From: Bacteroidaceae bacterium
GTDB taxonomy: Bacteria > Bacteroidota > Bacteroidia > Bacteroidales > Bacteroidaceae
DNA length: 45,956 bases
Direction: 5' to 3'
NCBI GenBank assembly: GCA_024398515.1
Contig: JAKSIZ010000016.1
Span: 1-45,956, forward strand
The first letter of the stretch is position 1, and each line of letters starts with the position of its first letter. The position numbers were made by a program, and so were the translations under genes. The notes below the pieces were generated by a model. The model was not told the origin of the DNA and did no database searches. It saw only the letters and a list, made by a program, of their open reading frames with translations. Positions 4,841-44,234 of this stretch are shown here, in pieces.

Positions 4841-4919
4841 AAAGTTGTACAACTTTCGCACGAAAGTTGTACAACATTCAGTTGAAAGTTGTACAACTTT
4901 TTTTTCGAGTTAAGCGTTC
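4841..4919 (-). repeat. Triple-dyad intergenic element A
   Basis: Three copies of the 16-base perfect palindrome AAAGTTGTACAACTTT (the middle copy has one mismatch) start at 4841, 4863 and 4885, a period of exactly 22 bp. On the minus strand the order is GAACGCTTAACTC, an A run, then the units, then a T7 run and CACCCCC. The last two minus-strand units with the CG-TG-CG linker form a hairpin followed by T7, so it can serve as the terminator of the antiporter gene ending at 4957. Same architecture as the elements at 14574, 21096, 36129 and 44135. Confidence 0.8.
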
Positions 4920-4920
4920 G

Positions 4921-4954
4921 TCTTCGAGATTTCGAGATTTCGAGTTCTCGAAAT
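4921..4954. repeat. Short tandem repeat, 8-bp unit TTCGAGAT-like
   Basis: Between element A and the antiporter stop codon the plus strand repeats TCGAGATT at 8-bp spacing, ending in a palindromic TTCTCGAA. A related 16-bp double repeat sits at 11229-11259. Confidence 0.6.
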
Positions 4955-4956
4955 AA

Positions 4957-7212
4957 TTACATCAATAAGGCGAGTTCTTTCACTTTTGTCTCTTCGCCTA
5001 CGAGGAAGAGTATGTCGCCTTCGGCAAATGGTCGTTGCTTGTCGATTGGCGTGAGTTGCTCTTTGCCGTTGTCAAGTCCGAGTGCCATGCACTTATATAT
5101 GTCGCGCAATCCACTGTCGGCTATGGTCTTGCCAAGGAATGGGCAGCGTGATGATAATTCTATGGAGAGCACTTTCATGTCGTCGTACTTGCGTTCGACG
5201 AATGATTCGCTGTCGGTTATTGCCTTGCTGAACTTGCTGAGTTCGCTGTCGGTGCCCACAACGTTTATCACGTCGTTAGGGAAGAGTATGTTCTTTCCGC
5301 CTGGTATATTGATGCGGTATGAGCCTCGTATGATGCTGCTTACGTGTACGCCAAAGCGTGTACCGAAGTGAAGGTCGTGGAGCGAACGGCCTACGCAGAA
5401 ACTATGGTCGGGTATCGTGATGGTCGAGATGTGTATATCACGATTGACGAGTCGGCTGTGTCCGAACTGTCTTCGGGCTCCGGTATATTTCTCTTGCTGA
5501 TATTTCTCGCGTGCGCCAAGGTTCTCGAAGAAGCGTTTTTCGATGGATTCACCGCTTTTCTTGAGCGACTTTGACTTGACAATGAAGATGAATATAATAA
5601 GTGCGATGGCAAAGAGTATGGCCAATCCGAACTGGTCGCTAAAGATGCTTACCACGCTGAACACGAAGAGCATCGCCACTGCCCAACGTACAAGAATGGT
5701 AAAAATAAGTGGAAGTCGGTTGAGGAAACTCTCGTCCCAGAGGCGCCTGTAGTCTTCATCGCGCAGTTTCTTTACCGCGATTGCCCTGAGGAATGGCGCC
5801 ATCAGCATCAATGCTATGACTGCCGAGAGCAAGGATGACCATGGTTCCGGTAACAGAGAATTGACGAATGGACCGCCGACAGTGTACATAAACAGTATGA
5901 TTGCAACGCAGATTACGGAGTATATAACTACCAGTTTCAACAGTTTTACGAGATAACTTTTCCACTGCGTAGCCCCGTCGGAGAGCGATGGAGAGCTTAT
6001 CGTAAGCTTGTTGAGCACGTCTAACCACTTGTCAGGAATGCGTCGTTCGAGGTGTTCGTATGCTGGTGTGGCGAGTTTTATCATGTAAGGCGTGAGGAAT
6101 GTAGTGATTACACTGACCGCCACAACCACTGGATAAAGGTGAGGACTGATGACTTTCAGCGACAGTCCAAGCGATGCGATGATGAATGCAAATTCACCTA
6201 TCTGCGCCATTGAAAAGCCGCATTTCACTGCATTGTTCAACGATTGTCCGCTTATGAAGTAAGCAAAAGTGCTGAACACAGCGTGTCCCACGACGATGGT
6301 AAGCACCAAAATGACGATTGGTACGGAGTATTCAACTATAATCTTAGGCTCAACAAGCATACCGACAGAGACGAAGAAGACTGCTCCAAAGAGGTTTTTC
6401 ACAGGATTGAACACGCGTTCTATCTTCTCCACTTCGATGGTTTCGGCAAGTATGCTGCCCATAATAAACGCACCGAAAGCACTGCTGAAGCCGACTTTTG
6501 TAGAGAATATCGCCATGCCAAGGCATAGTGCGATAGAGAGGATGAGCAATGTCTCGTCGTTGATTATGCCGCGAAGTTTGCGCAACAACAACGGAACAAG
6601 GAAGATTCCAAACAAGAACCAAATCAACACATAGAATGCAATCTTCAGCACACTAAGGGCAACCTGACCGCCACTAAGTTCGCCTTCGCCCGCAAATGCC
6701 GAAAGCATGACCATGAGAACAATGGCAAGTATGTCTTCGAGAATGAGCACACTCATGACGAGCGACGTGAATTTCTGCTGGAACAAGCCCATGTCGTCGA
6801 ACGCCTTATATATAATAGTGGTGGAACTCATGGCAAGCATTCCGCCAAGGAACACGCAGTCCATGTCGCTCCATCCGAACACATGACCCACACAACTGCC
6901 CAGAACCATCATGCAGAAGACTATCGTCACGGCTGCGATTATCGGTGCAGCACCCATCTTTGTAATCTTCTTGAACGAAAATTCCAAGCCTAATGAGAAC
7001 AACATGAATATGACGCCAATGTTGGCCCATACGCTGATGTCGGCCTCGTCAACGACAGATTCCGTGTAAGGCATGTGGGGAGAAACAAAGAAACCAGCCA
7101 CGATGTAACCCAACACAAGCGGTTGCTTGAGCTTCTTGAATATGAGGGTGACTACTGCCGCAGCGGCAAGTATCAGTCCCAAATCAGTGACAAGAACAGG
7201 TACTCCTTCCAT
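4957..7212 (-). CDS. CPA2-family monovalent cation/proton antiporter with C-terminal RCK/TrkA-C domains
   Basis: An inner-membrane protein of 751 residues. The first 390 residues are the 12-13 helix Na+/H+ exchanger domain (KefB/KefC/CPA2 class), with the helix breaks and acidic residues of the transport core in SVLILEDILAIVLM. Several further membrane helices follow at about 425-560. The C-terminus has two TrkA-C-like regulatory modules, each with a GRSLHDL- or GKTIADSGL-type opening. Potassium or sodium for proton exchange under ligand control is the family role. I start it at the ATG at 7210-7212. An in-frame TTG two codons upstream would overlap the pepT stop codon. The ATG lies 2 bp after that stop, so translational coupling is likely. 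No TrkA-N nucleotide-binding domain is apparent. Confidence 0.88.
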   Translation of the reverse strand: MEGVPVLVTDLGLILAAAAVVTLIFKKLKQPLVLGYIVAGFFVSPHMPYTESVVDEADISVWANIGVIFMLFSLGLEFSFKKITKMGAAPIIAAVTIVFCMMVLGSCVGHVFGWSDMDCVFLGGMLAMSSTTIIYKAFDDMGLFQQKFTSLVMSVLILEDILAIVLMVMLSAFAGEGELSGGQVALSVLKIAFYVLIWFLFGIFLVPLLLRKLRGIINDETLLILSIALCLGMAIFSTKVGFSSAFGAFIMGSILAETIEVEKIERVFNPVKNLFGAVFFVSVGMLVEPKIIVEYSVPIVILVLTIVVGHAVFSTFAYFISGQSLNNAVKCGFSMAQIGEFAFIIASLGLSLKVISPHLYPVVVAVSVITTFLTPYMIKLATPAYEHLERRIPDKWLDVLNKLTISSPSLSDGATQWKSYLVKLLKLVVIYSVICVAIILFMYTVGGPFVNSLLPEPWSSLLSAVIALMLMAPFLRAIAVKKLRDEDYRRLWDESFLNRLPLIFTILVRWAVAMLFVFSVVSIFSDQFGLAILFAIALIIFIFIVKSKSLKKSGESIEKRFFENLGAREKYQQEKYTGARRQFGHSRLVNRDIHISTITIPDHSFCVGRSLHDLHFGTRFGVHVSSIIRGSYRINIPGGKNILFPNDVINVVGTDSELSKFSKAITDSESFVERKYDDMKVLSIELSSRCPFLGKTIADSGLRDIYKCMALGLDNGKEQLTPIDKQRPFAEGDILFLVGEETKVKELALLM

Positions 7213-7214
7213 AA

Positions 7215-8438
7215 TCAATCATTATATGCTCCTGTAAGTTCGCAGAGTTTAACGACTACCATCATAGCCTTTTCCATAGTCTGAATGGAAACAAACTCGT
7301 ATGGTCCGTGGAAGTTTACGCCGCCTGCGAAGATGTTTGGGCAAGGAAGTCCCTTGAACGAAAGTTGTGCACCGTCAGTTCCTCCACGTATAGGTTGCAC
7401 CTTTGGCGACACACCTGCCTCGTTCATAGCCTGAAGTACGAGGTCGATGACGTGCATGTTGTCCTCAATCTTCTCAAGCATATTATAATATTGGTCGTTG
7501 AGCGTGAGGGTTGCAGTGCCTTCGCCATACTTTTCATTTATCTCGCGGACACATTTATCAATGAAATCCTTGCGTTCTTCAAAGCGTTCACGGTCGTGGT
7601 CACGAATGATATAACTGAGGTTTGACTTCTCGACATTGCCGCTCATTCCCGTCAGATGATAGAATCCTTGGTACCCTTCGGTAAACTCTGGAGTCTCCTT
7701 GCGTGGAAGCATTGAGGCAAACTCGTTGGCAACCATGTTTGCATTCACCATTTTTCCTTTGGCATAACCAGGATGAACACTGACGCCACGGAACTCAATC
7801 TTGGCTGATGCAGCGTTGAAGTTCTCGTATTCCAACTCGCCGAGGTCGCCTCCGTCCATAGTGTAAGCCCATTGGCAACCGAACTTCTCAACGTCGAAAT
7901 GATGTGCGCCCATGCCTATTTCCTCGTCAGGATTAAAGGCAATGCGGATGTCGCCATGCTTTATCTCGTCGTGTTCTTTCAGATAAACCATAGCCTGAAC
8001 AATCTCGGCAATGCCAGCCTTATCGTCTGCTCCGAGCAGTGTAGTGCCGTCTGTCACGATAAGGTCTTCGCCCTTATGATCGAGGAGTTCGGGGAATTGG
8101 CGTGGAGAAGACACGATACCTGGCGAAAGTTCAATGTCGTTTCCGTCGTATGACTCGATGATTCTTGCCTTTATGTCCTTTCCGCTGCAGTCAGGCGACA
8201 CGTCGTAATGGCTGATGAAGCCGATGGTCGGAACCTCTTTCTTGATATTCGATGGAAGAGTTGCATAGATGTAACCCATGTCGTCCATCTCCACATCCTT
8301 GAGTCCTTCGCTTTCAAGTTCTTTTTTCAAGTATTTGGCAAACACAAGTTGTTTGTCCGTACTGGGCACTGAGTCGGAAGTTTCCGATGACTGAGTGTCG
8401 AATTTTGTGTAGTTTATAAACCGTTCTACAATGTTCAT
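7215..8438 (-). CDS. pepT: Peptidase T (tripeptide aminopeptidase)
   Basis: 407 residues, the standard length for PepT of peptidase family M20B, a cytoplasmic dinuclear zinc aminopeptidase removing the N-terminal residue from tripeptides. The metal site is complete: SHYDVSPD (His77, Asp79), LLGADDKAG (bridging Asp138 region), NPDEEIG (catalytic and metal Glu172-173), Asp195 in TMDGGD, and the late His in [28 protein letters not shown] is also typical. It ends 2 bp before the antiporter start and lies 15 bp after the lipoprotein-gene region, in a short minus-strand run. Confidence 0.96.
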
Positions 8439-8453
8439 AATCGATATTTGTTA

Positions 8454-9221
8454 TTATTTGGATTTGTCATTTTTACCGATGGAATCGGCATTTTCTTCAA
8501 CTTTCTTACGGTAATAACCCTGAGGTCCATCATCAAAGAAAATGATTAGAGAGTCCTGTTTCAATATCTTAAAGTCAACAGTATCCTTATGCATATTCTT
8601 TGCCATTGGGGTGAGAACAAGGTTGCCATTGAACAGTTCCCATCCTTTATACATTTTTGGTGCACGGTATTCGGCAAGTTGAAGCCCCGTTTCCTCCGCG
8701 TTTTTAATTCGCATACCAACAAAAGAAACGTTGTGGTTATCGCCGATTTCTATTCCGTACTCCACAGGTTTGAACATTTCCTGGCGCAACGAGTCGGAGA
8801 TAGAATCGTTCAAATGCTTTTCAAGCATGGCGAACTCCTTGTCGGTCATTGCTGCAGGACGGCGCAAAGTAGGAACTTCAAGATAGCACCACTTGCCTTT
8901 CAACAAGTCGATATTGATAACTTTTTCCGCGTATTGGCTATCGGCAGAAAGGATTATGGCAACATTGTCGCCCGTCTTTGGCATACCTAATATCTCATGA
9001 TTTTTCCATGCATGAGTAATGTCGAAAGTTTTTGGATCAGAGAGGTCATAAGGCATTACCTCAATAATCGAGTCGTTACAATCGCAGCAAAGACCATAAA
9101 AAGTGGAATCGCCAGGCTTATTCTGCACGCCCGATGGTTGTCCATTGCCATGTTGTCCACCCGCACATGCGTTGACGAGCAAAGCAAAAAACGCTAATAT
9201 CAGAAACAATTTGGTTTTCAT
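8454..9221 (-). CDS. Uncharacterised lipoprotein (DUF4738-like)
   Basis: 255 residues. The start was placed at the ATG at 9219-9221 because MKTKLFLILAFFALLVNAC is a clean lipoprotein signal peptide with the lipobox cysteine at residue 19. A longer in-frame ORF to 9362 would add 47 implausible residues and run across the promoter. The mature protein opens with a Gly/Gln/Asn-rich linker, has CCDC (possible metal or disulfide site), then a beta-rich domain ending in IIFFDDGPQGYYRKKVEE. This ending resembles the DUF4738 family of Bacteroidales lipoproteins; that assignment is from memory. No known function. It is expected to be anchored in the periplasm or outer membrane. Confidence 0.75.
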   Translation of the reverse strand: MKTKLFLILAFFALLVNACAGGQHGNGQPSGVQNKPGDSTFYGLCCDCNDSIIEVMPYDLSDPKTFDITHAWKNHEILGMPKTGDNVAIILSADSQYAEKVINIDLLKGKWCYLEVPTLRRPAAMTDKEFAMLEKHLNDSISDSLRQEMFKPVEYGIEIGDNHNVSFVGMRIKNAEETGLQLAEYRAPKMYKGWELFNGNLVLTPMAKNMHKDTVDFKILKQDSLIIFFDDGPQGYYRKKVEENADSIGKNDKSK

Positions 9222-9238
9222 ATTGCAAATATTTGTGT

Positions 9239-9247
9239 GCAAAGTTA
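9239..9247 (-). promoter_or_regulatory. -7 element for the lipoprotein gene
   Basis: The minus strand reads TAACTTTGC 17 bp upstream of the chosen ATG at 9221, which also supports the shorter start. Confidence 0.6.
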
Positions 9248-9329
9248 ACAAATAAATGTGAAAAAAAAGTTTTCGAGCGCAAATAAATATAAATTTATTT
9301 ATTTTATTGAACATTTTCTCGATGTAACC

Positions 9330-9360
9330 TTGTAAATATTGAAAGATTTTGTAATTTTGC
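9330..9360 (+). promoter_or_regulatory. Promoter of the carboxyltransferase gene
   Basis: TTG at 9330-9332 and TAATTTTGC at 9352-9360 with a 19-bp gap fit the Bacteroidetes -33/-7 consensus, giving a leader of roughly 50 bases before the ATG at 9420. Confidence 0.7.
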
Positions 9361-9419
9361 AAAACTTTTAGTAAAGGATTAAAAATTTGACAAAATTCTA
9401 TAGTAAATTAACCTAAGTT

Positions 9420-11198
9420 ATGAAGAAGAAAAAAAAGATTCAGTTTAGTCTCCTTTACAGAGACATGTGGCAGTCATCAGGAAAGTTTCAGCCACGTAAG
9501 GATCAGTTAGAGCGTGTTGCACCTGCAATCATCGACATGGGCTGTTTCCAGAGAGTTGAAACTAACGGTGGTGCTTTTGAACAAGTAAACCTTTTGGCAG
9601 GCGAAAACCCTAACGATGCAGTACGCGCATTCTGCAAACCTTTCAATGAAGTAGGCATCCAGACTCACATGCTCGACCGCGGTCTGAACGCATTGCGTAT
9701 GTATCCAGTGCCTGACGATGTACGCGAACTTATGTATAAGGTAAAGAAGGCACAGGGTGTTGACATCCCTCGTATCTTCTGCGGATTGAACGATACCCGC
9801 AACATCATACCAAGTATCAAGTGGGCAAAGGCTGCAGGTATGATTCCTCAAGCAACACTTTGCATCACTACTTCTCCTATCCACACAGCAGAATACTATG
9901 CAGCAATTGCTGAAGAACTCATTGCTGCCGGTGCTGAGGAAATAGCATTGAAGGACATGGCAGGTATTGGTCAGCCAGCAATGCTTGGCAAGTTGACAAA
10001 GATGATCAAGAAGGCTCACCCTGAAATCATCATCGAATATCACGGACACAGTGGTCCTGGTCTTTCTATGGCATCAATACTTGAAGTCTGCAACAATGGC
10101 GCTGACATCATTGATACGGCTGTTGAGCCTCTGTCATGGGGTAAGGTTCACCCAGACATCATCTCTGTCCAGAGCATGTTGAAGCACGAAGGCTTCGAGG
10201 TAGCAGACATAAATATGAATGCTTACATGCAGGTTCGTAGCCTCACTCAGGAATTTATCGACGACTGGCTCGGATACTTCATCAACCCACAGAACAAGAT
10301 TATGTCGTCTCTGCTCCTCGGTTGTGGACTCCCTGGCGGTATGATGGGTTCAATGATGGCAGACCTTGCTGGTATTCACAGCGTAATCAACAAGACTTTG
10401 AAGGCAAAGGGCGAACCAGAACTTTCAACTGACGAAATCCTCGTTAAGCTCTTCGACGAAGTTGCTTACGTATGGCCTCGCGTAGGTTATCCTCCATTGG
10501 TAACTCCATTCTCACAATATGTAAAGAACATTGCTCTCATGAATCTTCTCACACTTGCACAGGGCAAGGGCCGCTTCTCTATGATGGACGACAGCATGTG
10601 GGGCATGATTCTTGGCAAGAGTGGTAAGGTGCCAGGCAAGATTGACAATGAACTTGTCGAACTTGCAAAGGCAAAGGGCAAGGAATTCACTGATGCAGAC
10701 CCTCATACTCTCATTCCTAATGCTCTCGATGACTTCAAAAAGGAAATGAAGGAAAACAATTGGGACTTCGGTAAGGACAATGAAGAACTCTTCGAACTTG
10801 CCATGCACCCAGAACAGTATCGCAACTACAAGAGCGGTGCTGCAAAGAAGAACTTCCTCGCTGACCTTCAGGCTGCAAAAGACAAGAAGCTTGGTGCAAC
10901 TCTTACTCCTGAGCAGGTTGCAGAAATCAAGCACGCAAAGGCTGACCCTGTTGTATGTCCAGTCAAAGGACAATTGTTCTGGGAATTTGGCGGTGGCGAC
11001 GAAGCTGCTCCTACAGCACAGCCTTCTATCGGTCGTGAATACGAGCAGGGCGAACTCTTCTGCTTCATCAAGACTCCTTGGGGACAGACTCAGGAAGTCG
11101 GTGCAGCACTCGGCGGAACTCTCGTTGAAGTATGCGTAAAGCAGGGTGGCTTTGTTAATCGTGGCGAAATCCTTGGTTACATCGAAAGAAAAGCGTAA
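9420..11198 (+). CDS. Carboxyltransferase (oxaloacetate decarboxylase alpha / pyruvate carboxylase B-like) without a biotinyl lysine
   Basis: 592 residues. Residues about 8-300 are the DRE-TIM carboxyltransferase barrel: LLYRDMWQSS carries the metal-binding Asp15, ALKDMAGIGQ the active-site Lys that is carbamylated in this family, and EYHGHSGPG the two metal-ligand His. Residues about 300-470 fit the PYC/OADA conserved domain. The C-terminal 45 residues look like a biotinyl/lipoyl fold (GALGGTLVEVCVKQGGFVNRGEILGYIE), but the chain stops there. The E-A-M-K-M hairpin with the biotinylated Lys is absent. So it cannot itself carry biotin in the usual way. It may use a separate carrier protein or another carboxyl acceptor. 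It is monocistronic or leads HD and LptD. The Lys-rich start (MKKKKKIQ) is notable. The family is certain, the exact reaction is not. Confidence 0.85.
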   Translation: MKKKKKIQFSLLYRDMWQSSGKFQPRKDQLERVAPAIIDMGCFQRVETNGGAFEQVNLLAGENPNDAVRAFCKPFNEVGIQTHMLDRGLNALRMYPVPDDVRELMYKVKKAQGVDIPRIFCGLNDTRNIIPSIKWAKAAGMIPQATLCITTSPIHTAEYYAAIAEELIAAGAEEIALKDMAGIGQPAMLGKLTKMIKKAHPEIIIEYHGHSGPGLSMASILEVCNNGADIIDTAVEPLSWGKVHPDIISVQSMLKHEGFEVADINMNAYMQVRSLTQEFIDDWLGYFINPQNKIMSSLLLGCGLPGGMMGSMMADLAGIHSVINKTLKAKGEPELSTDEILVKLFDEVAYVWPRVGYPPLVTPFSQYVKNIALMNLLTLAQGKGRFSMMDDSMWGMILGKSGKVPGKIDNELVELAKAKGKEFTDADPHTLIPNALDDFKKEMKENNWDFGKDNEELFELAMHPEQYRNYKSGAAKKNFLADLQAAKDKKLGATLTPEQVAEIKHAKADPVVCPVKGQLFWEFGGGDEAAPTAQPSIGREYEQGELFCFIKTPWGQTQEVGAALGGTLVEVCVKQGGFVNRGEILGYIERKA

Positions 11199-11228
11199 AT
11201 AAACCTGGTCTGCATGACCTTAAAGAAA

Positions 11229-11259
11229 TCGAAATCTCGAAACATCGAAATCTCGAAAG
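11229..11259. repeat. Short tandem repeat, ATCGAAATCTCGAAA x2
   Basis: Two 16-bp copies of ATCGAAATCTCGAAAC/G lie in the 61-bp gap before the HD gene and abut its ATG. The core TTTCGAGATTTCGA is shared on the opposite strand with 4921-4954. Confidence 0.6.
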
Positions 11260-11802
11260 ATGGATTATAACAAGATAATCGACAAGTATTATCCAGAAGA
11301 GACAGAGCGGAAACGCATTCTGATTACTCACAGCAAGTCTGTAGCGCAACGTGCGCTACAGATTGCTGATTTACATCCTGAACTGAATCTTGACCGTGAA
11401 TTCCTTGAGGAGGCTGCTATGCTTCACGACCTTGGCATCTTTGCCTGCGACGCAAAAGCCATTGACTGTCACGGAACTGAACCATACATCCGCCATGGTA
11501 TCATTGGTGCGGACATATTAAGAAAGGAAGGATTCCCACAACATGCACGTGTCTGCGAACGACACACAGGCACAGGACTGCCAGCACATCACATCGAGAT
11601 GCTGCAACTGCCTTTGCCGCCGTATGTAGATTACTGCCCCGAGACATTGGAGGAAAAGATTATTTGTTACGCCGACAAGTTTTATTCCAAGACTCACCTC
11701 AACCAGTGCAAGACGATGGAACAAGCTTATCGCAGTTTAATGAAGTTCGGCCACGACACAGCCGAACGGTTTAAGCAATGGTATCAAGAGTTTGAAGGAT
11801 AA
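11260..11802 (+). CDS. HD-domain phosphohydrolase, uncharacterised
   Basis: 180 residues. The protein has a small HD fold: an N-terminal helix with HSKSVAQRAL, then AAMLHDLGIFAC with the metal-binding HD pair, the His pair in YIRHGIIGADIL, and CERHTGTGLPAHH. These provide the usual metal ligands for a cytoplasmic phosphohydrolase acting on nucleotides or related phosphates. The substrate is unknown. Its stop overlaps the LptD start by 11 bp, so the two are translationally coupled. A 16-bp repeated motif sits directly before its start codon, leaving no clear Shine-Dalgarno, as is usual in Bacteroidetes. Confidence 0.85.
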   Translation: MDYNKIIDKYYPEETERKRILITHSKSVAQRALQIADLHPELNLDREFLEEAAMLHDLGIFACDAKAIDCHGTEPYIRHGIIGADILRKEGFPQHARVCERHTGTGLPAHHIEMLQLPLPPYVDYCPETLEEKIICYADKFYSKTHLNQCKTMEQAYRSLMKFGHDTAERFKQWYQEFEG

Positions 11803-14557: not shown

Positions 14558-14573
14558 ACGCAAGGCTTTTACA

Positions 14574-14668
14574 GAACGAGCCTAATACTCGCGGCAAAAC
14601 TGTAGCAGTTTTCACTTGGAAACTGTAGCAGTTTTCGATCGAAAACTGCTACAGTTTTTTTCACCCCC
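14574..14668 (+). repeat. Triple-dyad intergenic element B (with terminator hairpin)
   Basis: Units start at 14597, 14620 and 14643 (23-bp period). Units 1 and 2 read AAACTGTAGCAGTTTT; unit 3 is their exact reverse complement. Units 2 and 3, joined through TTCGATCGAA, form an almost 19-bp perfect hairpin followed by T7, a strong terminator for lptD. The left end has GAACGAGCCTAATACTCG, related to the ends of the other elements. The right end TTTTTTTCACCCCC is identical to that of element A on its minus strand. Confidence 0.85.
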
Positions 14669-14712
14669 TTCCGCACGACATAACAAACCATAAAGTTTTC
14701 CCCCTCATTTTC

Positions 14713-14744
14713 TTGCACAAATCCACAATATTTATTATCTTTGC
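14713..14744 (+). promoter_or_regulatory. Promoter of the pectate lyase gene
   Basis: TTG at 14713-14715 and TATCTTTGC at 14736-14744 with a 20-bp gap, leaving a leader of about 80 bases before the ATG at 14833. Confidence 0.7.
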
Positions 14745-14832
14745 ATTCGTAATCATAACTCACGATATCTAACGAAAACATATATTATATAGAACAAGTA
14801 AACCCTATAACTCACTAAACAAATTCTCGATT

Positions 14833-21095: not shown

Positions 21096-21198
21096 AAACG
21101 AGCCTTTTTCCCGTTTGCACATTCTTAGAATGTTCACGTGTACATTCTTAGAATGTTCCGATGAACATTCTAAGAATGTATTTTTGGTTTAAGCGTTC
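21096..21198 (+). repeat. Triple-dyad intergenic element C
   Basis: Units start at 21119, 21142 and 21165 (23-bp period). Units 1 and 2 are ACATTCTTAGAATGT; unit 3 is the exact reverse complement ACATTCTAAGAATGT. A T5 run follows, then GGTTTAAGCGTTC. The left end reads AACGAGCCT as in element B. The right end overlaps the stop codon of the 36-residue gene on the minus strand (TGAACGCTTAAACC), so this copy lies immediately downstream of that gene. Confidence 0.85.
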
Positions 21199-34639: not shown

Positions 34640-34654
34640 TTGTCATAAATTTCT

Positions 34655-34663
34655 GCAAAGATA
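34655..34663 (-). promoter_or_regulatory. -7 element for the GHL10 gene
   Basis: The minus strand reads TATCTTTGC 15 bp before the start codon at 34639, leaving a very short leader. This may favour the start two codons later. Confidence 0.5.
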
Positions 34664-34708
34664 ATCAAAAAAATTTACAATTTGCAAGGTCTTTTTAATT
34701 ATTATTTG

Positions 34709-34717
34709 TAAATTTGC
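34709..34717 (+). promoter_or_regulatory. -7 element for glyA
   Basis: TAAATTTGC on the plus strand, 29 bp before the chosen glyA ATG. It overlaps the longer ORF start at 34714 and so excludes it. Confidence 0.6.
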
Positions 34718-34746
34718 ACACTGAAACATTTTTAAAGACTATAAAG

Positions 34747-36027: not shown

Positions 36028-36080
36028 TTTTCCAGATACTGAGCATTTGTTGTGGGCGTTTCGTCGCAATAAATTGATAG

Positions 36081-36121
36081 AAGCACCCGTATGTTTTAAT
36101 CATGACATGCGGGTGCTTTTT
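36081..36121 (+). terminator. glyA terminator
   Basis: A 14-bp stem (AAGCACCCGTATGT with ACATGCGGGTGCTT, one G-T) and 10-base loop followed by T5. Confidence 0.9.
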
Positions 36122-36128
36122 GTAGATT

Positions 36129-36230
36129 GAACGCTTAACTCTGTCAAACATTGCAGCAATGTTCGAGTCAACATTGGAGCAATGTTCAGTTCAACATTGC
36201 TCCAATGTTTTTATGAGTATAACGCTTGAG
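36129..36230 (+). repeat. Triple-dyad intergenic element D
   Basis: Units start at 36148, 36171 and 36194 (23-bp period): ACATTGCAGCAATGT, ACATTGGAGCAATGT and its exact reverse complement ACATTGCTCCAATGT. The left end is GAACGCTTAACTC, the exact inverse of the right end of elements A and E. The right end is T5 then GAGTATAACGCTTGAG. It lies between the glyA terminator and the end of the convergent fcl gene. Confidence 0.85.
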
Positions 36231-36252
36231 TCGGTAAACGATGACGTTGAAG

Positions 36253-37422
36253 TCACTTTTCGAGTGAGGACTTGTACCAGCAGAAAAGCCTGTTTACTCC
36301 GTCATCTATCTCCACTTTATGAGTCCAGCCAAGCGAATGGAGCTTGTCAACGTTGATTAGTTTGCGCATAGTTCCGTCAGGCTTTGACGCGTCGAAAACG
36401 ATTTCGCCCGTGAAGCCGACTGCCTTCGCAACGAGTTCCGACAGTTCGCGTATGGTAAGTTCCTTGCCCGTGCCGACGTTGATATGGCAGTTGCGTATCT
36501 CGCCCAACGAAGGTATGGCGCCTCCTCTGCCTGCACTGTGGTTGCGGTCAACGGCTCCGTCGGTCGATGCGCCATAGTGAACGCTCGAATACTTTTCGAT
36601 GCCTATGATGTCGGCAAAGTTTACGTTGAGCAGCACGTGAACTGACGCGTCGGCCATGTCTTCGCTCCATAGGAACTCGCGTAGCGGTTTTCCCGTGCCC
36701 CAGAGAATGACCTTGTTGCTCTGGATGCCGTACTTGCTGAGCACTGCGAGGATTTCTTCCCTTCCCGCACTGCCGTCAATGCCCTCGACAGGACGCTTGT
36801 TGAGGTCGGTTGCGATCTTTTCCCATTCGCCGTCGGCAATGAGTTTCGCAAGGTATATCTTGCGCATCATGGCTGGCATGACGTGAGAGTTTTCGAGGTG
36901 GAAGTTGTCGTTCGGGCCGTAGAGGTTTGTCGGCATCACGGCAATATAGTTTGTGCCGTACTGCAAGTTATAGCTCTCGCACATCTTCAAGCCCGATATC
37001 TTGGCGAGTGCATACTCTTCGTTAGTGTATTCCAATTCGCTTGTCAGCAGGCAGTCTTCCCTCATCGGCTGCGGCGCATTCTTAGGATAGATGCATGTGC
37101 TGCCGAGGAAAAGCAACTTCTCAACGCCATGTGCGTATGCCTCGCTAATCACGTTGCACTGAATCTTCATGTTCATCATCATGAAGTCGGCACGGTAAAG
37201 CGAGTTTGCCATGATGCCACCGACAAAGGCTGCAGCGAGCACAACGGCATCGGGTTGCTCTTCATCGAAGAACTTCTTTACGGCATATTGGTCGGTGAGG
37301 TCTAACTCGCGGTGCGATTTGCCTACAAGATTACTGTACCCACGTGCCTTGAGATTGTTCCATATTGCAGAGCCTACAAGCCCGTTGTGCCCTGCGACGT
37401 ATATCTTTGAATTCTTATCCAT
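36253..37422 (-). CDS. fcl: GDP-L-fucose synthase
   Basis: 389 residues of the short-chain dehydrogenase fold. [19 protein letters not shown] is the NADPH-binding motif. [17 protein letters not shown] carries the catalytic Ser, and [16 protein letters not shown] the Tyr-x3-Lys. It converts GDP-4-keto-6-deoxymannose to GDP-L-fucose. About 65 residues longer than the E. coli enzyme because of an insertion (about 200-225, [20 protein letters not shown]) common in Bacteroidetes. It lies 4 bp after gmd, whose product is its substrate. GDP-fucose feeds capsule, O-antigen and surface protein O-fucosylation in Bacteroidales. Confidence 0.95.
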
Positions 37423-37426
37423 AGCT

Positions 37427-38737
37427 TTATTTTACTATACCTTTCTCCAGATATTCGGCAAGGTTGGTGCGCACCTTAAGTGCTGCGCCTTCACATGCCA
37501 CCTTCGTCAAGTCTGACTCAACCATAATCCTGATGAGTTCCTCGAACGATGTCTTCGTAGGATTCCAGTGTAATTTGGCCTTTGCCTTGGTCGGGTCGCC
37601 CCAGAGATTGACTACATCCGTCGGACGATAGAAGTCCTTGCTGACGGCGACAAGCTCCTTCCCAATGAGTTCTTTAGGGCCTGCAACGCAAACACCCACT
37701 TCGTTTATGCCCTCGCCATGGAACTCCAGTTCCATTCCGGCATATTTGAATGCCAAATAAGCAAACTCGCGGACACTATGCTGAACGCCGGTTGCAATGA
37801 CGAAATCCTCAGGCTTGCGGTTCTGAAGAATGAGCCACATGCACTCTACATAGTCCTTGGCATAGCCCCAATCGCGTAGCGACGAGAGGTTTCCAAGGTA
37901 GAGTTTATCCTGCATACCGTTAGCAATACGCGCTGCTGCAAGCGTAATCTTGCGCGTAACAAAGGTCTCGCCCCTACGTTCACTCTCGTGGTTGAATAGG
38001 ATACCCGAACAACAGAACATGTTGTATGCCTCGCGATACTCTTTCACAATCCAGTAACCATACAGTTTTGCCACAGCGTATGGGGAATAAGGGTGGAAAG
38101 GAGTGTTCTCGTTCTGCGGCACTTCCTCAACCTTTCCATATAGTTCCGACGTACTTGCCTGATAGATTCGGCAGGTGTTTTCCAAGTGGCAAGCGCGAAC
38201 TGCCTCAAGAATACGCAACACACCAGTGGCATCAACGTCGGCAGTAAACTCTGGCGAGTCAAACGACACCTGTACATGACTTTGTGCAGCAAGGTTGTAA
38301 ATCTCGTCAGGCATTACCTGTCCTACGACTTTCACGATTGACATTGAGTCGCCCATATCGGCATAATGCAAGTGGAAATTAGGCTTTCCTTCAAGGTGAG
38401 CAATGCGTTCGCGGTAGTCAACAGAGCTTCTTCGAATGATTCCATGCACGTCGTATCCTTTTTCCAACAGGAACTCTGAGAGGTAACTTCCGTCCTGGCC
38501 AGTGACGCCAGTGATGAGTGCAACCTTTCTTGTGCGAAGCGATTTAGGTTTGTCAATCGTCTCGCCAAGTTTTTCTTCTATTAGAGCAAGGCTGCTCTTA
38601 GATATACCTGTCCTACCCGAAAACCATCGGCTGACGATTGTCTCGTCTTTTCCGATAAGATTTGCAAGTTCACGCTGCGAGATTTCTTTCTTCTCCAATA
38701 ACGCCTTCAAAGAGGCAATGATGTCTTCTTTTTCCAT
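37427..38737 (-). CDS. gmd: GDP-mannose 4,6-dehydratase with N-terminal XRE-type HTH domain
   Basis: 436 residues. Residues 1-60 are a helix-turn-helix of the Cro/C1 type: [19 protein letters not shown], then [21 protein letters not shown] short linker ([10 protein letters not shown]) leads at residue 71 into a complete Gmd: [20 protein letters not shown] (NADP motif), [22 protein letters not shown] (Tyr-x3-Lys) and [16 protein letters not shown]. The enzyme makes GDP-4-keto-6-deoxymannose. Ordinary Gmd begins at the KVALITG strand. The fused reading frame is open and has no Met between HTH and enzyme that could start a separate Gmd. The promoter at 38770-38778 lies upstream of the HTH. DNA-binding ability and autoregulation are inferred. 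Confidence 0.9.
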
Positions 38738-38769
38738 ATTATATATAATTTAATTTCACGAAATCGCAT

Positions 38770-38778
38770 GCAAAGTTA
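38770..38778 (-). promoter_or_regulatory. -7 element for gmd-fcl
   Basis: The minus strand reads TAACTTTGC, 33 bp before the ATG of the HTH-Gmd fusion, so the HTH segment is inside the transcript. Confidence 0.65.
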
Positions 38779-39080
38779 GTCACTTTCTTTTACTTTGCAA
38801 AACAAGTTTAATTATTTTTTCATTACTTGACTTTTGCAAATACAGTTTCGTTCTATTCATATACACTTCTCAAAATAAACAATCAAGTCGTGAAAATCTT
38901 TTTTGTTTCACTTGCACAATCCATGTATTATAAAGACACTAACCAGCATTATTCATACCACCACATTGCGAAAGGACTAAATTACAGTGCATAAAGCTAT
39001 GGAATATGAGACTATTTACGCGAAAATCAAGAGAAAACACATCGAAAAAAATATATTTCTGCATTTTTTCGACAAAAAAG

Positions 39081-39112
39081 TTTGTTAATTGCAAAAAAAT
39101 CAATATATTTGC
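39081..39112 (+). promoter_or_regulatory. Promoter of the DUF349 gene
   Basis: TTTG at 39081-39084 and TATATTTGC at 39104-39112 with a 19-bp gap, a nearly ideal Bacteroidetes promoter, 39 bp before the ATG. Confidence 0.8.
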
Positions 39113-39150
39113 AATTTGAAGTGTAGATGTATATCTAAAATAAACATATT

Positions 39151-41073
39151 ATGGACTCTCTAGAAGTAAAAGACCAGGCTCCTATCGTGAACGAGGAACC
39201 TCTAACAGAAGCTCAGGTAGAAGAAGCTCCTGTCGTTGAAAAGAATGAAGAATCGGCTGAAGTCATCGCCGCTGACACTGCACCAGTAGAGGAAGAGGCA
39301 GAATCTGCAAAGGTGGTGTATGAATCGAAAGCTGACGTTATCAACCGTGTAAAGGAAATCGCCCACGGCGAAGAAGTTCCGCAGAAAGCAGAGATTGACT
39401 ATCTGAAGACTGCTTTCTACAAGTTGCACCTTGCCGAACGCGAGGCACAGTATAAGGAATTCATCGCAGGTGGTGGTGACCCAGAGAAATATGAGGTCAC
39501 ACCAAGCGAGGACGAAGAAATCTTCAAGGCTGAGATGGGTCTTATCAGAGAGAAACGTGCCATAGCTTTCCAAGAGCAGGAAAAAGAAAAGAAGGAGAAC
39601 TACGAAAAGAAGCTCGAGATAATTGAAAAGATAAAGGCAATGGCTGTATCGCCTGAAGAAGCTAACAAGTCGTACAAGCAATTCAAGGACTTGCAGCAGC
39701 AATGGAAGGAGATAAAAGCAGTGCCTGCAGACAAGGCTAACGTGCTTTGGCGCAACTATCAGTTGTATGTAGAGCAGTTCTACGACTTGCTGAAGCTCAA
39801 CAACGAGGCACGTGAATATGATTTCAAGAAAAACCTTGAACTGAAGACAAAGCTTTGTGAGGCAGCAGAACGCCTTGCCGACGAGCCAGATGCCATTAGT
39901 GCATTCCATCAGTTGCAGAAACTCCATCAGGAATTCCGCGAGATTGGTCCAGTTGCAAAAGACCTTAGGGAAAGCGTTTGGGAAAGATTCAAAGCCGCTT
40001 CAACGATAGTAAACAAGCGTCATCAGGCACACTTCGACGAACTAAAGGGACAGGAAGAGGAAAATCTCCAGAAGAAAACTGCGCTCTGCGAGAAGGTTGA
40101 AGAGATTGCAAAGGCTGAAGTGAAGAACTCAAGCGAATGGGAAAAGCTCACAAAAGAAATCATCGAGATACAGACAGAGTGGAAGACGATAGGCTTTGCA
40201 CCACAGAAGATGAACGTAAAGATATTCGAACGCTTCCGTGCTGCATGCGATGAATTCTTCACAAGAAAGGCTGATTTCTTCAAGAACATAAAGGAAATCT
40301 TTGCTGCAAACGCAGAAAAGAAACGTGCACTCATAGCAAAGGCAAACGAACTGAAGGAAAGCACCGATTGGAAAAAGACCAGCGATAAGTTTGTTCAGCT
40401 CCAGAAGGAATGGAAGGAAATAGGCATGACACAGAAGAAGGTGGGCGATGCTCTTTGGGCAGAGTTCCTTGGTGCTTGCAATTATTTCTTTGAGAAGCGC
40501 AACTCATCGACCACAAATCAATATAAGGAAGAGCGTGAGAACCTTCAGAAGAAGAAAGGCGTCATAGCTCAGTTAAAGGAACTTCTTGAGAAAAGCAGCG
40601 ACGAGGCAGAAGCACTTGTCGGCAAACTCTCAGAGGAATTCAACGCCATTGGCCACGTTCCATTCAAGGAGAAGGACAAGATCTACACTGAATATCGTGA
40701 GACTATTGACGCATTGAGAAAGAAACTCAACATCAGTTTCAACAAGAAGAACGTAGAAGACTTCAAGAACAACTTGAAGAAACTTGCCAAGGAAGGTGAG
40801 GATTCTCTGCTTTCAGAACGTGCACGACTGATGAGACAGTACGAAAACCTCAAGTCAGAGATACAGACTTACGAGAACAACCTCGGTTTCCTCAACGCTT
40901 CAAGCAAGAAGGGCAACAGCCTGATTGACGAAGTAAACAAGAAGATTGATAAGCTTAAGGACGATGTTCAGGCTATATATAATAAGGTGAAAGCCATTGA
41001 CGAAGAGCGCAACAAGCCAGAGGTTAAGGAAGAAGAACCTGCAGCAGAAAGCGCAGAACAAGCTGAAGCATAA
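39151..41073 (+). CDS. DUF349 repeat protein
   Basis: 640 residues, almost entirely alpha-helical and coiled coil. The first 60 residues are acidic and low complexity (Glu/Ala/Val). About six DUF349 repeats follow, each about 70-75 residues with a W-K-x-I/E-x-x-P pattern: LQQQWKEIKAVPADKANVLW, FREIGPVAKDLRESVWERF, EWKTIGFAPQKMNVKIFERF and EWKEIGMTQKKVGDALWAEF. The C-terminus is acidic again (EEEPAAESAEQAEA). Cytoplasmic, since no signal peptide is present. DUF349 proteins are widespread in Bacteroidetes and their function is unknown to me. Monocistronic with a terminator at 41095. Confidence 0.87.
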   Translation: MDSLEVKDQAPIVNEEPLTEAQVEEAPVVEKNEESAEVIAADTAPVEEEAESAKVVYESKADVINRVKEIAHGEEVPQKAEIDYLKTAFYKLHLAEREAQYKEFIAGGGDPEKYEVTPSEDEEIFKAEMGLIREKRAIAFQEQEKEKKENYEKKLEIIEKIKAMAVSPEEANKSYKQFKDLQQQWKEIKAVPADKANVLWRNYQLYVEQFYDLLKLNNEAREYDFKKNLELKTKLCEAAERLADEPDAISAFHQLQKLHQEFREIGPVAKDLRESVWERFKAASTIVNKRHQAHFDELKGQEEENLQKKTALCEKVEEIAKAEVKNSSEWEKLTKEIIEIQTEWKTIGFAPQKMNVKIFERFRAACDEFFTRKADFFKNIKEIFAANAEKKRALIAKANELKESTDWKKTSDKFVQLQKEWKEIGMTQKKVGDALWAEFLGACNYFFEKRNSSTTNQYKEERENLQKKKGVIAQLKELLEKSSDEAEALVGKLSEEFNAIGHVPFKEKDKIYTEYRETIDALRKKLNISFNKKNVEDFKNNLKKLAKEGEDSLLSERARLMRQYENLKSEIQTYENNLGFLNASSKKGNSLIDEVNKKIDKLKDDVQAIYNKVKAIDEERNKPEVKEEEPAAESAEQAEA

Positions 41074-41094
41074 GCTTCAAGGAGATATAAATAG

Positions 41095-41121
41095 AAAAGC
41101 CCTCAATGTTGAGGGCTTTTT
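41095..41121. terminator. Bidirectional terminator
   Basis: AAAAGCCCTCAA at 41095-41106 pairs with 41109-41120. It ends DUF349 on the plus strand and the tRNA-Gln transcript on the minus strand. Confidence 0.85.
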
Positions 41122-41123
41122 TG

Positions 41124-41194
41124 TTGGGGTACCCGGGCTCGAACCAGGAATGACAGGACCAGAATCTGTAGTGTTACCATTACACCATACCCCA
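41124..41194 (-). tRNA. tRNA-Gln (CTG)
   Basis: On the minus strand the acceptor TGGGGTA pairs with TACCCCA. The D-arm GGTGTAATGGTAACAC, anticodon loop TTCTGGT (anticodon CTG, plus positions 41160-41162) and T-arm CCTGGTTCGAGCCCGGG follow. It reads CAG. CCA is not encoded. A minus-strand TACCTTTGC at 41222-41230 is its promoter. Confidence 0.92.
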
Positions 41195-41221
41195 GAATTC
41201 CTTTTGTTTCTGAAATCGGAT

Positions 41222-41230
41222 GCAAAGGTA
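41222..41230 (-). promoter_or_regulatory. -7 element for tRNA-Gln
   Basis: The minus strand reads TACCTTTGC, 28 bp before the mature 5' end. Confidence 0.6.
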
Positions 41231-41329
41231 ATAATAATTTTTATTACTGCAACAACCTTTTTCAAAAAACAGTTTCCTTTTTATATTTATTAACACTTCA
41301 AAGGTTCTTCCCTATTCCTTATATATAAT

Positions 41330-41361
41330 AAGGCGCGAGGACAAGAAGGTCTTCGCGCCTT
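41330..41361. terminator. Strong hairpin downstream of the repeat protein gene
   Basis: A 13-bp stem (AAGGCGCGAGGAC with GTCTTCGCGCCTT, one G-T) around AAGAAG. On the minus strand an AT-rich but not pure T stretch follows, so it is a likely but not classical terminator for the gene ending at 41420. Confidence 0.6.
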
Positions 41362-41369
41362 GAAATTAG

Positions 41370-41398
41370 AGCCCCCCTCTGTTCCCCCAAGGGGGGAT
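41370..41398. repeat. G-rich dispersed repeat, intergenic copy
   Basis: The reverse complement matches 30441-30469 with one mismatch in 29. It can fold on itself through CCCCCC/GGGGGG. A further GGAGGGGG tract follows to 41412. Confidence 0.85.
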
Positions 41399-41419
41399 AA
41401 AGGAGGGGGCTGTTTCTAA

Positions 41420-43723
41420 TTACATTCCGAGGATAATGCTTGCAGTACCTGTGATATCAGAAACTGTGATTTCATTATCATTGTCAACGTCAGCATTGTC
41501 GAAGTTGAATGGACTTGGGTTGTTGCCAAGGATGTAAGCAGCGATAGTTGTGATATCAGAAACTGTTACAGCTTCGTCTTCGTCAGCGTCACCCTTCAAA
41601 CCTGCTGGAGTTGGAGGAGTTGGCACTGCACCTGGAGTGAACTTGAATCCACCGAAACCAAGCTGAGTGTTCTCGTTGAACAACCAGTATGTCTTACCTG
41701 CGGTCATGTTGAATGTCAGATATACCCATGCAGCCTGTCCCTGGTTAACTTCTGCCTGGAGACAATAAGGGTTGTCTTCTGTTGCTGCAAGTTCATAGTA
41801 TATCATCTTCTTGCCAAGAGTTTCATCGGCTGGGTCGATTGGTTCGTCCTTACCATTTACATAACCTGAATACTTAACCTCACCCTTCAATGGATCGAGA
41901 GCTACTGCAGTCTCGCCATCAACAACGTAAGCCTTGCGGTTACCCTTGTTGTTCCATACGAGGAACTTCATTACACCGTCAGTCTTAGCTGTTACCTTAT
42001 AGTATGCACCATACTTTGGAAGGCCTTTGCTGCCGTCTGGGCTATAGTAGAAGTCATATTCACCAGTGAATTCCTTGCCTGTTTCATCAAACCAAGGGCC
42101 ATTAGGGTCATCCACTGTTCTGTAGCTACGACGATAGTCGCCTGTTGCAACGTCGTCCTTATACTTTGCTGCGAATGCAACACCTGTTGTTGGGTTACCG
42201 CCACCGTTTACGATATAGAGAGTCTTTGTTGCTCCAAGAGCGTCGTCCCATACGTTGTTACGACTGTTCTTTACTGCCCAACCATTGTTGTACTGAGGCT
42301 CAAGTGGAAGAGTTGTACCGTCTGTCCAACCTGTCTCAGGACCTGAAAGTGCATAGAGGTGTACGTTTGCAGTTGCGTCGATGTCAACTACGTTACCTGC
42401 TTCATTAGCTTCAGCTACCCATTCAGCCTTTGCTACACCTGTCTCATCAGTTGGAAGATATTCTTCTGCTTCTACTACAGCTGGAGTAAATTCAAATCCA
42501 CCGAAACCAAGCTGAGTGTTCTCGTTGAACAACCAGTATGTCTTACCTGCGGTCATGTTGAATGTCAGATATACCCATGCAGCCTGTCCCTGGTTAACTT
42601 CTGCCTGGAGACAATAAGGGTTGTCTTCTGTTGCTGCAAGTTCATAGTATATCATCTTCTTGCCAAGAGTTTCATCGGCTGGGTCGATTGGTTCGTCCTT
42701 ACCATTTACATAACCTGAATACTTAACCTCACCCTTCAATGGATCGAGAGCTACTGCAGTCTCGCCATCAACAACGTAAGCCTTGCGGTTACCCTTGTTG
42801 TTCCATACGAGGAACTTCATTACACCGTCAGTCTTAGCTGTTACCTTATAGTATGCACCATACTTTGGAAGGCCTTTGCTGCCGTCTGGGCTATAGTAGA
42901 AGTCATATTCACCAGTGAATTCCTTGCCTGTTTCATCAAACCAAGGGCCATTAGGGTCATCCACTGTTCTGTAGCTACGACGATAGTCGCCTGTTGCAAC
43001 GTCGTCCTTATACTTTGCTGCGAATGCAACACCTGTTGTTGGGTTACCGCCACCGTTTACGATATAGAGAGTCTTTGTTGCTCCAAGAGCGTCGTCCCAT
43101 ACGTTGTTACGACTGTTCTTTACTGCCCAACCATTGTTGTACTGAGGCTCAAGTGGAAGAGTTGTACCGTCTGTCCAACCTGTCTCAGGACCTGAAAGTG
43201 CATAGAGGTGTACGTTTGCAGTTGCGTCGATGTCAACTACGTTACCTGCTTCATTAGCTTCAGCACCCCATTCTACCTTTGCTACACCAGTCTCATCAGT
43301 TGGAAGATAAGTCTCAACTGCGCTTGGTGTTGGGCCTGGTTCTACTGATCCGCTAACGAGGTCGATGCTTGTGATAGTGTAAACACCACCCATGAGAACG
43401 AGTCCCATTGACTTCAATGTGTTTACTGTTGAAGCTGTCAATTCGAAGACAACATCACCAGCAGCAGCGATTTCAGTGTAAGGGATAACCTCAGTTGCAT
43501 AGTCGCCTCCAAATGCATTGACGTATGCACCAGCAGCAACGTCGGCTACTGTGATTGAAAGCTTCTGGTCAGCTGTTGCGTCAGCGAATGCACTTGCTTC
43601 TACTGCAAACGGAAACATGCCGTCCATTGCCTGTGTTCCTGACCAAACATTTGTCTTTTGGTCCTGAGCACTAATTGTCAGCACTGTCATGAGTGCCACA
43701 ACGAAAGTAAAAATTTTTTTCAT
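41420..43723 (-). CDS. Secreted protein with two near-identical 283-residue repeats and dockerin-like C-terminus
   Basis: 767 residues. The signal peptide MKKIFTFVVALMTVLTISA is followed by a divergent N-terminal region (about 20-140). Then come two tandem repeats of 283 residues, each starting YLPTDETGVAK and ending near NTQLGFGGF(E/K)FTP. The last 60 residues are a dockerin-like module with two calcium-loop-type motifs (GDADEDEAVTVSDITTIAAY, NADVDNDNEITVSDITGTAS), almost the same as in the pectate lyase at 14833. Repeat content is beta-rich and Trp/Tyr/Asn-rich, compatible with a glycan-binding or adhesin domain, but I do not recognise the family. The repeats are encoded by an 849-bp tandem duplication with 770 bp identical. 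The -7 element is at 43827-43834 (minus TAACTTTG), giving a leader of about 95 bases. Confidence 0.8.
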   Translation of the reverse strand: MKKIFTFVVALMTVLTISAQDQKTNVWSGTQAMDGMFPFAVEASAFADATADQKLSITVADVAAGAYVNAFGGDYATEVIPYTEIAAAGDVVFELTASTVNTLKSMGLVLMGGVYTITSIDLVSGSVEPGPTPSAVETYLPTDETGVAKVEWGAEANEAGNVVDIDATANVHLYALSGPETGWTDGTTLPLEPQYNNGWAVKNSRNNVWDDALGATKTLYIVNGGGNPTTGVAFAAKYKDDVATGDYRRSYRTVDDPNGPWFDETGKEFTGEYDFYYSPDGSKGLPKYGAYYKVTAKTDGVMKFLVWNNKGNRKAYVVDGETAVALDPLKGEVKYSGYVNGKDEPIDPADETLGKKMIYYELAATEDNPYCLQAEVNQGQAAWVYLTFNMTAGKTYWLFNENTQLGFGGFEFTPAVVEAEEYLPTDETGVAKAEWVAEANEAGNVVDIDATANVHLYALSGPETGWTDGTTLPLEPQYNNGWAVKNSRNNVWDDALGATKTLYIVNGGGNPTTGVAFAAKYKDDVATGDYRRSYRTVDDPNGPWFDETGKEFTGEYDFYYSPDGSKGLPKYGAYYKVTAKTDGVMKFLVWNNKGNRKAYVVDGETAVALDPLKGEVKYSGYVNGKDEPIDPADETLGKKMIYYELAATEDNPYCLQAEVNQGQAAWVYLTFNMTAGKTYWLFNENTQLGFGGFKFTPGAVPTPPTPAGLKGDADEDEAVTVSDITTIAAYILGNNPSPFNFDNADVDNDNEITVSDITGTASIILGM
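41646..43264. repeat. Direct tandem duplication, 849-bp period
   Basis: By eye, 41646-42415 and 42495-43264 are identical over 770 bp, so homologous recombination could add or remove a unit. The identical antisense reading frames in both copies support this. Confidence 0.9.
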
Positions 43724-43826
43724 GCTTTTGAACTTTTGTTAGTTAATAATTAGAAATTTGAAAATTTTAAGTTGTTTATTTTGTTTTTAGTTACTATTAT
43801 CAATAGATGGTTTGCGCAACGCGCGA

Positions 43827-43834
43827 CAAAGTTA
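43827..43834 (-). promoter_or_regulatory. -7 element for the repeat protein gene
   Basis: The minus strand reads TAACTTTG about 100 bp upstream of the ATG. The leader includes the GC-rich palindromic TTGCGCAACGCGCG. Confidence 0.5.
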
Positions 43835-44134
43835 CTAAATTATATTTAATAAGGTGTGGTTTGATTAAAATCAATGTCATGTTTTATGTTTTTTTAAGAC
43901 TTTACACACAATTTCTCCCTATTTTTGCCGATATATTAGTATAATTCAACTTTCGGATGTTCACTAATAAAAGAAACAACAATAGCCGTTTTATGAAAGA
44001 TATTATCTCCGATAATCTGCCGTCATTGAATATCAATCTTACCAAAAACAAGTTTTTGAAAGCTTCTCTTCAATGCCAGCAAACATGCCCGACGCTAATA
44101 AATCTGGCACTCGACGCTGATGATTGCAACGGAC
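43835..44134. other. Intergenic stretch without recognised gene
   Basis: AT-rich to about 43960. A 61-codon open frame at 43957-44142 shows no family features or start context and is not called. CGACGCTAAT and CGACGCTGAT words occur 26 bp apart near 44090-44122. Triple-dyad element E follows. Confidence 0.4.
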
Positions 44135-44234
44135 GAACGTAATACTTGAAAAAACATTGCTGCAATGTTGGTCCGAACATTGGAGCAATGTTGGAGTCAA
44201 CATTGCAGCAATGTTTTTCAGAGTTAAGCGTTCA
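44135..44234 (+). repeat. Triple-dyad intergenic element E
   Basis: Units start at 44154, 44177 and 44200 (23-bp period): ACATTGCTGCAATGT, ACATTGGAGCAATGT, and ACATTGCAGCAATGT, the last being the exact reverse complement of the first. The left end is GAACGTAATACTTG. The right end is T5, CA, GAGTTAAGCGTTC. It lies between two divergently transcribed genes, just upstream of the polymerase start, so it is not placed as a simple terminator of a plus-strand gene. Confidence 0.85.

Follow-up and report, generated by a model that had tools for sequence, protein, structure and literature searches.

Five intergenic sites (A to E) in a 45,956-nucleotide stretch of Bacteroidaceae DNA (contig JAKSIZ010000016.1 of assembly GCA_024398515.1; hereafter the window) each carry three short dyads at an exact pitch, and related elements recur throughout the same genome. 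The five sites are copies of a dispersed, non-coding intergenic repeat. The reading that we put first, with slightly less than even confidence, is that this repeat is similar to repetitive extragenic palindromes (REPs) and miniature inverted-repeat transposable elements (MITEs), and that its core would be a phased, cooperative array of candidate binding sites for a DNA-binding protein. We favor this reading because the dyads are invariant, the pitch is exact, the linkers vary more freely, the flanks are graded and phased, the elements appear to be copied whole, and their sequences are restricted to the species.

Direct reading bears out the shared design that an earlier note on this DNA had described: three dyads per site, spaced by 22 bp in A and 23 bp in B to E, with TTC-N-GAA-like linkers, T or A runs at the edges, and, in every site except A, a third unit that exactly reverse-complements one of the other two. 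The core of element A (4841–4900, family F1) holds the dyad GTTGTACAAC three times, at 4844–4853, 4866–4875, and 4888–4897. In element B (core 14596–14658, family F4), the dyad word is AAAACTGTAGCAGTTTT, at 14596–14612, 14619–14635, and 14642–14658; in element C (core 21118–21180, family F3), it is ACATTCTTAGAATGT, at 21119–21133, 21142–21156, and 21165–21179. Elements D (core 36147–36209; dyads 36147–36163, 36170–36186, and 36193–36209) and E (core 44153–44215; dyads 44153–44169, 44176–44192, and 44199–44215) both use AACATTGCTNCAATGTT or its complement and form family F2. Thus the dyad does differ between sites, as had been claimed, but the window holds four dyad types because D and E are one family. 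The three copies within a site match only approximately in D and E, where three central dyad letters differ. The left arm of A (4781–4840) is of a CCCC/GGGGGTG type that recurs in many F1 copies, and its right arm (4901–4940, + strand) bears the GAGTTAAGCGTTC end. The left end of A and the right end of B share TTTTTTTCACCCCC, as previously noted. The left arm of D (36129–36146) reads GAACGCTTAACTC, and the right arm of E (44216–44260, + strand), GAGTTAAGCGTTCAACTT...GAAAGCATAACG, displays the 22-bp-phased flank consensus considered below. Called genes are avoided by all five sites. A strict triple-dyad scan of the window found four clusters (B was missed) and none in five shuffles, and a looser one found all five. 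At the Rfam gathering score, the window contains three tRNAs only, and the elements match no curated RNA family.

The proposal that these sites belong to a dispersed family with fixed spacing holds when the whole genome is searched (a draft of 2.65 Mb in 90 contigs, 87.8% complete, of which the window is contig 8). Allowing one mismatch, the end motif GAGTTAAGCGTTC has 115 matches versus 6 for a reversed control. Dyad matches number 124 for F1, 78 for F3, and 216 for F4; F2 has 173 on one strand and 180 on the other, with palindromic copies counted twice. Scaled by matches per element, these counts correspond to ∼58 F1, ∼73 F2, and ∼76 F4 elements, with 26 for F3 if every one is a triple. We therefore estimate a total of ∼230 elements in four sequence families. 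End motifs lie within ∼200 bp of several contig ends (G000; for instance C2:41, C63:54, C67:110, and C11:203), which suggests that the repeats break the assembly and that the copy count is a lower bound.

A catalogue drawn from 594,960 bases of this genome comprises 119 three-unit and 6 two-unit elements (125 multi-unit elements in all), together with four single-dyad calls; two of these calls are parts of a single F4 triple, L209, whose middle dyad is mutated. Dyads are 14–17 bp long and linkers 4–6 nt. With pitches from 19 to 27 bp allowed, the pitch was constant in 119 of 119 three-unit elements: 22 bp in every F1 element (30 of 30) and 23 bp in F2 to F4. A structural scan blind to sequence recovered all 119 catalogued triples, and 119 of its 120 clusters coincide with catalogued elements. 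The sole uncatalogued cluster consists of three TTTTGCACAAAA-like sites at a 21-bp pitch (L206:2295–2350), upstream of an apparent open reading frame (ORF) starting ATGGCTATACCTAAG, and looks like a promoter-like or phased operator triple.

Conservation is concentrated in the dyads. In an alignment of 47 three-unit F2 elements, all 42 columns of the dyad arms are invariant, as against none of the 12 linker columns. The alignment does not include L052, the two-unit element that carries the only substituted F2 dyad. Among all multi-unit elements, 10 of 369 dyads carry a substitution (7 in F1, 2 in F4, and 1 in F2). The figures for F3 and F4 are biased towards intact copies: a dyad could enter the catalogue with no more than one substitution, and an exact dyad had served to pick the loci of 48 of the 125 elements (24 F4, 15 F3, 5 F1, and 4 F2). 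In a less biased sample, chosen by the end motif only, 72 of 73 ends have a dyad no more than 70 bp away that is intact or carries a single substitution, the exception being an isolated end-motif match in L021. The centres of F2 dyads are also restricted, to CTG, CTC, CTA, and their complements, which is more than a mere hairpin loop would need.

Beyond the core, information falls steadily outward over ∼80–90 bp. The outward-facing end motifs reported earlier do exist, although as degenerate arms rather than one sharp motif; most loci in the flank profile were picked by the end motif, so that one end is conserved through the selection of loci. In the flank consensus, read by eye, CG and AA positions recur every 22 bp in register with the dyads. 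No solo copy of an arm was found: searched against the rest of the window, 60 further stretches of this genome, and 400 kb from four congeners, the arm profile gave no E value under 1.9. A short repeat of TTCGAGATTTCGAGTTCTCGAAAT type, present in the window at 1332–1356, 4923–4951, and 11229–11257, also adjoins several triple-dyad arms.

The units within an element are not interchangeable. In F2, a centre that departs from the palindrome is found in 36 of 47 middle dyads versus 14 of 94 outer ones (palindromic centres: 11 of 47 and 80 of 94; p = 7e-13). F2 linkers fall into classes, and 29 of the 47 elements hold one of each; three hold two of one class, and the rest contain an unclassed linker. 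In both F1 (30 elements) and F2 (47 elements), an element's own linkers are less complementary to each other than are linkers of different elements, beyond all 5000 permutations. Arms, as judged by eye, have been exchanged between families. Because positions keep their identities across sites, the elements look inherited whole, and the mechanism homogenizing units within a site that the earlier note had offered is not needed.

These properties suggest how the repeat may work. With 22 or 23 bp making about two turns, the three near-perfect dyads of the core would stand in exact helical phase, and weaker units would decay outward from the core with the phase unchanged. The dyads would most likely be cooperative sites for a sequence-specific dimeric DNA-binding protein, with the linkers merely setting distance. 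Whole elements would multiply across the genome in the manner of REPs and MITEs, entering any long gap between genes and facing either way. Lineages with a dyad of their own would rise within a genome, as F1 to F4 may have done, and replace one another between species. The copies, their invariance and pitch, their whole-element inheritance, their species restriction, and their recurrence in congeners are observed, whereas a binding protein, its binding to the arrays, and active mobility are what we infer.

Phased binding arrays could instead serve the host, in nucleoid organization, insulation, or the action of a global regulator, each being selected at its locus rather than spreading selfishly. 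We consider this unlikely, though not far-fetched. It would account for the retention of dyads at nearly every locus chosen by the end motif, for the fixed pitch and the phased weak sites in the arms, and for the location of 64 of 67 elements of our first sample outside ORF calls. It accords poorly with four dyads in one genome and others in its congeners, which are difficult to square with a host protein that has hundreds of sites, and the composite inheritance of the elements indicates copying. Placement relative to genes does not distinguish the elements either: the gaps of the 58 elements with both neighbors are 32 tandem, 20 divergent, and 6 convergent, much like the 11, 5, and 3 among 19 gaps that are 150 bp or longer and hold no element.

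In F1 and F2, the sequences of the repeat are all but confined to its own species, whereas its geometry is not. Relatives were searched with the F1 and F2 words: neither dyad occurs in 59 other genomes, of which 35 are congeners, and F2 dyads have one match in 397 other congeners. Among the 59, the end motif matched once, in G012, where the 331 bases inspected contain no dyads; the other 58 gave no match. Congener matches to a 12.7-kb query are 68–79% identical among the matches listed. A looser array scan, covering 800 kb from 14 congeners, yielded 15 arrays spread over 8 genomes, and two shuffles yielded none. None of these arrays uses the dyads of the window's genome; examples are TGCGACGGCCGTCGCA, AGTTGGCCAACT, GGCAGCGGCCGCTGCC, AAAACGTACCTCCGTTTT, and CAAATTGGGCGAAATTTG, and G003 and G026 have one type in common. 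The yield depends on the scan: those requiring palindromic centres or strictly alternating units found none in 400 kb, and two of intermediate stringency found 2 each.

Two congeners show the same organization on a large scale. G085 holds 334 units of CAAWTTGGGCGAWWTTG (at most one mismatch), with none in five other genomes, and G083 holds 266 units of GGCAGCGNNCGCTGCC (at most one mismatch; control, 2), with 2 in one other genome and none in four. Nineteen of 23 arrays in G085 have four units, in mixed orientation and with outer units counted by their arms alone; steps among the rows listed are 22 or 44 bp. In G083, perfect outer dyads surround a differing middle dyad in 12 of the 22 rows listed, as in F2. 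The G083 elements are also accompanied by two distinct outer sequences, AACCGAAATTT... and AACCTAAAAAGCATGCCCC..., tens of bases long in several copies (L223, L224, and L241–L260), which are a longer composite repeat. Thus the idea of a constant architecture under changing sequence stands across species, and the design recurs beyond the window's genome with other sequences; what lacks support is covariation within a family and folding as the cause, as set out below.

More broadly, the arrays might represent a genus-wide system, in which a species-specific, fast-turning word and its cognate protein would be paired, and arrays of three or four putative sites would mark intergenic points, in parallel with fast-evolving satellites. 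We offer this as a possibility that is on balance doubtful. The trait common to species is here a geometry, two-turn-phased dyads at three or four per array, rather than a sequence, whereas bacterial repeats are usually grouped by sequence. The dyad word differs between species and even between families inside one genome. Similar elements would escape homology searches, and the class may be wider than annotation shows. This opens two questions to testing, namely which factor reads the arrays and how the word can be changed in a genome where it stands at hundreds of sites.

Several observations weigh against a mobile repeat with a protein-bound core. Neither a binding protein nor a mobilizing enzyme was found. 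A search of the draft genome (87.8% complete) for Y1_Tnp gave one partial match with an internal stop (positions 4–71 of 121; 28.4 bits versus a cut-off of 23 bits) and no intact REP transposase. The ends of the elements are ragged and without a sharp boundary, unlike those of a classical MITE. Of the 14 sampled congeners, six yielded no array; L098 and L103, among the 15 arrays, look weak. Many of the 21- to 23-bp intergenic repeats of congeners are not dyads, and periods of 21 and 22 are frequent in their coding DNA too. Finally, all five cores fold as RNA far better than shuffled sequences, with z from −5.65 to −9.90.

The period bears on whether the elements are simply neutral minisatellites, a few of which were amplified in a genus prone to intergenic tandem repeats of 21–23 bp. 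In the congeners, 27 of 51 reports of intergenic tandem repeats with a period of at least 17 fall at 21–23 bp (overlapping reports unmerged), in 13 of 14 genomes; some others have a period of 41–44. With such a wealth of repeats, a slippage origin is conceivable. Yet no multi-unit element among the 125 has more than three units, and F2 copies combine invariant dyads with variable linkers, the reverse of what slippage produces. In a small Escherichia coli control, 14.6 kb contained one intergenic report of period at least 10. We consider neutral minisatellites the most improbable of the explanations discussed here.

Strong folds are expected of any dyad array, but also of a structural element, and the earlier note had read the changing sequence as covariation, with selection on folding as one of two explanations. 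The elements would then be structured RNA or single-stranded DNA, such as bidirectional terminators or hairpins selected for folding while their sequence drifts freely. T runs on both sides and terminator-like matches at A and C agree with this, as do the 9 of 21 stem pairs that change on both sides between F2, F3, and F4 (compared over 8 rows, with 4 rows from the 47 F2 elements and 2 each from F3 and F4), although these changes rest on three discrete families only. None of the 21 stem pairs varies within F2, which leaves no change to count, and covariation within the family is rejected. The left and right arms of one element show no more complementarity than arms paired across elements. One long hairpin is likewise rejected, since neither arms nor linkers match better within an element than between elements. 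In 71 oriented G085 units, picked to hold an exact GGGCGA within a CAA..TTG pattern, A/T arm letters pair no more than expected (0.38, expected 0.50; 0.68 versus 0.71). This lack of kept pairing points to recognition of a duplex rather than a hairpin. Moreover, RNA hairpins need no exact pitch. We therefore judge selection for folding improbable.

A terminator as the main role, also raised earlier, fits poorly with placement. The elements do have hairpins and T runs, features of intrinsic terminators, yet the 20 of 58 in divergent gaps lie upstream of both neighbors, and a divergent third is hard to reconcile with a role at gene ends. Terminator-like sites in two scanned stretches show no excess over shuffles (16 versus 14.9 and 18 versus 18.4). 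By eye, the stretch 36097–36124, between the serine hydroxymethyltransferase gene and element D, holds an inverted repeat distinct from that element (GCACCCGTATG...CATGCGGGTGC), GC-rich and with a T run; element D may thus not be needed as the terminator of that gene.

Dyads like those of the window also turned up further afield. A scan of GTDB contigs for F2/F3-like pairs returned 6 stretches in four organisms, records of this genome or near relatives possibly being excluded there, and viral contigs gave 2. Element D had no match among phages, nor element E among plasmids. Pairs of ACATTCCCGGAATGT-like dyads at a 23-bp pitch are dispersed in a metagenome-assembled genome of Candidatus Shapirobacteria, an unrelated bacterium (L107:4641, L108:6245, and L110:4955), which has 12 such dyads at up to one mismatch versus 0 in the control. 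In 19 stretches of viral contigs with alike surroundings (L114–L132; e.g., L114:3476–3507), GTTGTACAAC stands twice at a distance of exactly 22 bp. These pairs apparently lie inside one related phage gene, putatively small-terminase-like, and are possibly phage recognition sites. Within the window, a gene of the impB/mucB/samB family (44271–45794) starts 55 bp downstream of the core of element E. Elsewhere in it, two 300-nt direct repeats, 98% identical (41625–41924 and 42474–42773), lie inside a 767-amino-acid ORF with a dockerin match.

It is useful to set the elements beside known systems. Phased operator arrays of DNA-binding proteins are a general type in which dyads recur about every two helical turns. 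The elements share that spacing, as does the 21-bp triple at L206 in the same genome; they differ in forming hundreds of dispersed copies without a tie to particular genes.

Among bacterial repeats, searches of the open-licence literature found no description of the triple-dyad design. The literature considered covers REPINs (PMC3116915), GTAG/CGTC REPs (PMC3733652), RepRanger (PMC12306157), and BrickBuilt (PMC4596501), as well as PMC8049555. BrickBuilt, a MITE of Porphyromonas gingivalis, is described as having 19 copies in one strain, each with 1 to 22.8 direct 23-nt repeats without spacers, a leader and tail of up to ∼300 nt, and IS5-like ends (PMC4596501). The present elements resemble it in being intergenic and species-restricted with a core of 23-nt period, and depart from it in having three dyads with linkers, at most three units, and the far larger copy number estimated above. 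MITEs in general are likewise short, non-coding, and dispersed, with inverted arms. Here, however, the outermost sequence is the least conserved, and match ends are mostly spread over 20–80 bp, with some longer shared stretches; the lack of conserved, sharp terminal inverted repeats speaks against membership of that class.

REPs and REPINs are high-copy intergenic palindromes with several families per genome, in which a less conserved spacer separates conserved palindromes (PMC3116915), and REP palindromes carry a GTAG or CGTC tetranucleotide at the foot (PMC3733652). The elements described here are also numerous short intergenic palindromes in several families per genome, but an inverted pair is replaced by three phased dyads at an exact pitch of 22–23 bp. 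GTAG or CGTC lies within 6 bp of the dyad edge, on either strand, in only 13 of 369 dyads, and F4 has GTAG in its centre only. In the 3.2 kb around the partial Y1_Tnp match, a search for F1 and F2 dyads and the end motif (F3 and F4 were not looked for) found none. The absence of a common tetranucleotide foot, and a Y1 match that is partial and interrupted by a stop, speak against membership among REPs with their associated RAYT (Y1) transposases. The initial guess of a MITE-like or REP-like element nonetheless named the nearest class, and the element may still work like a REP or a MITE.

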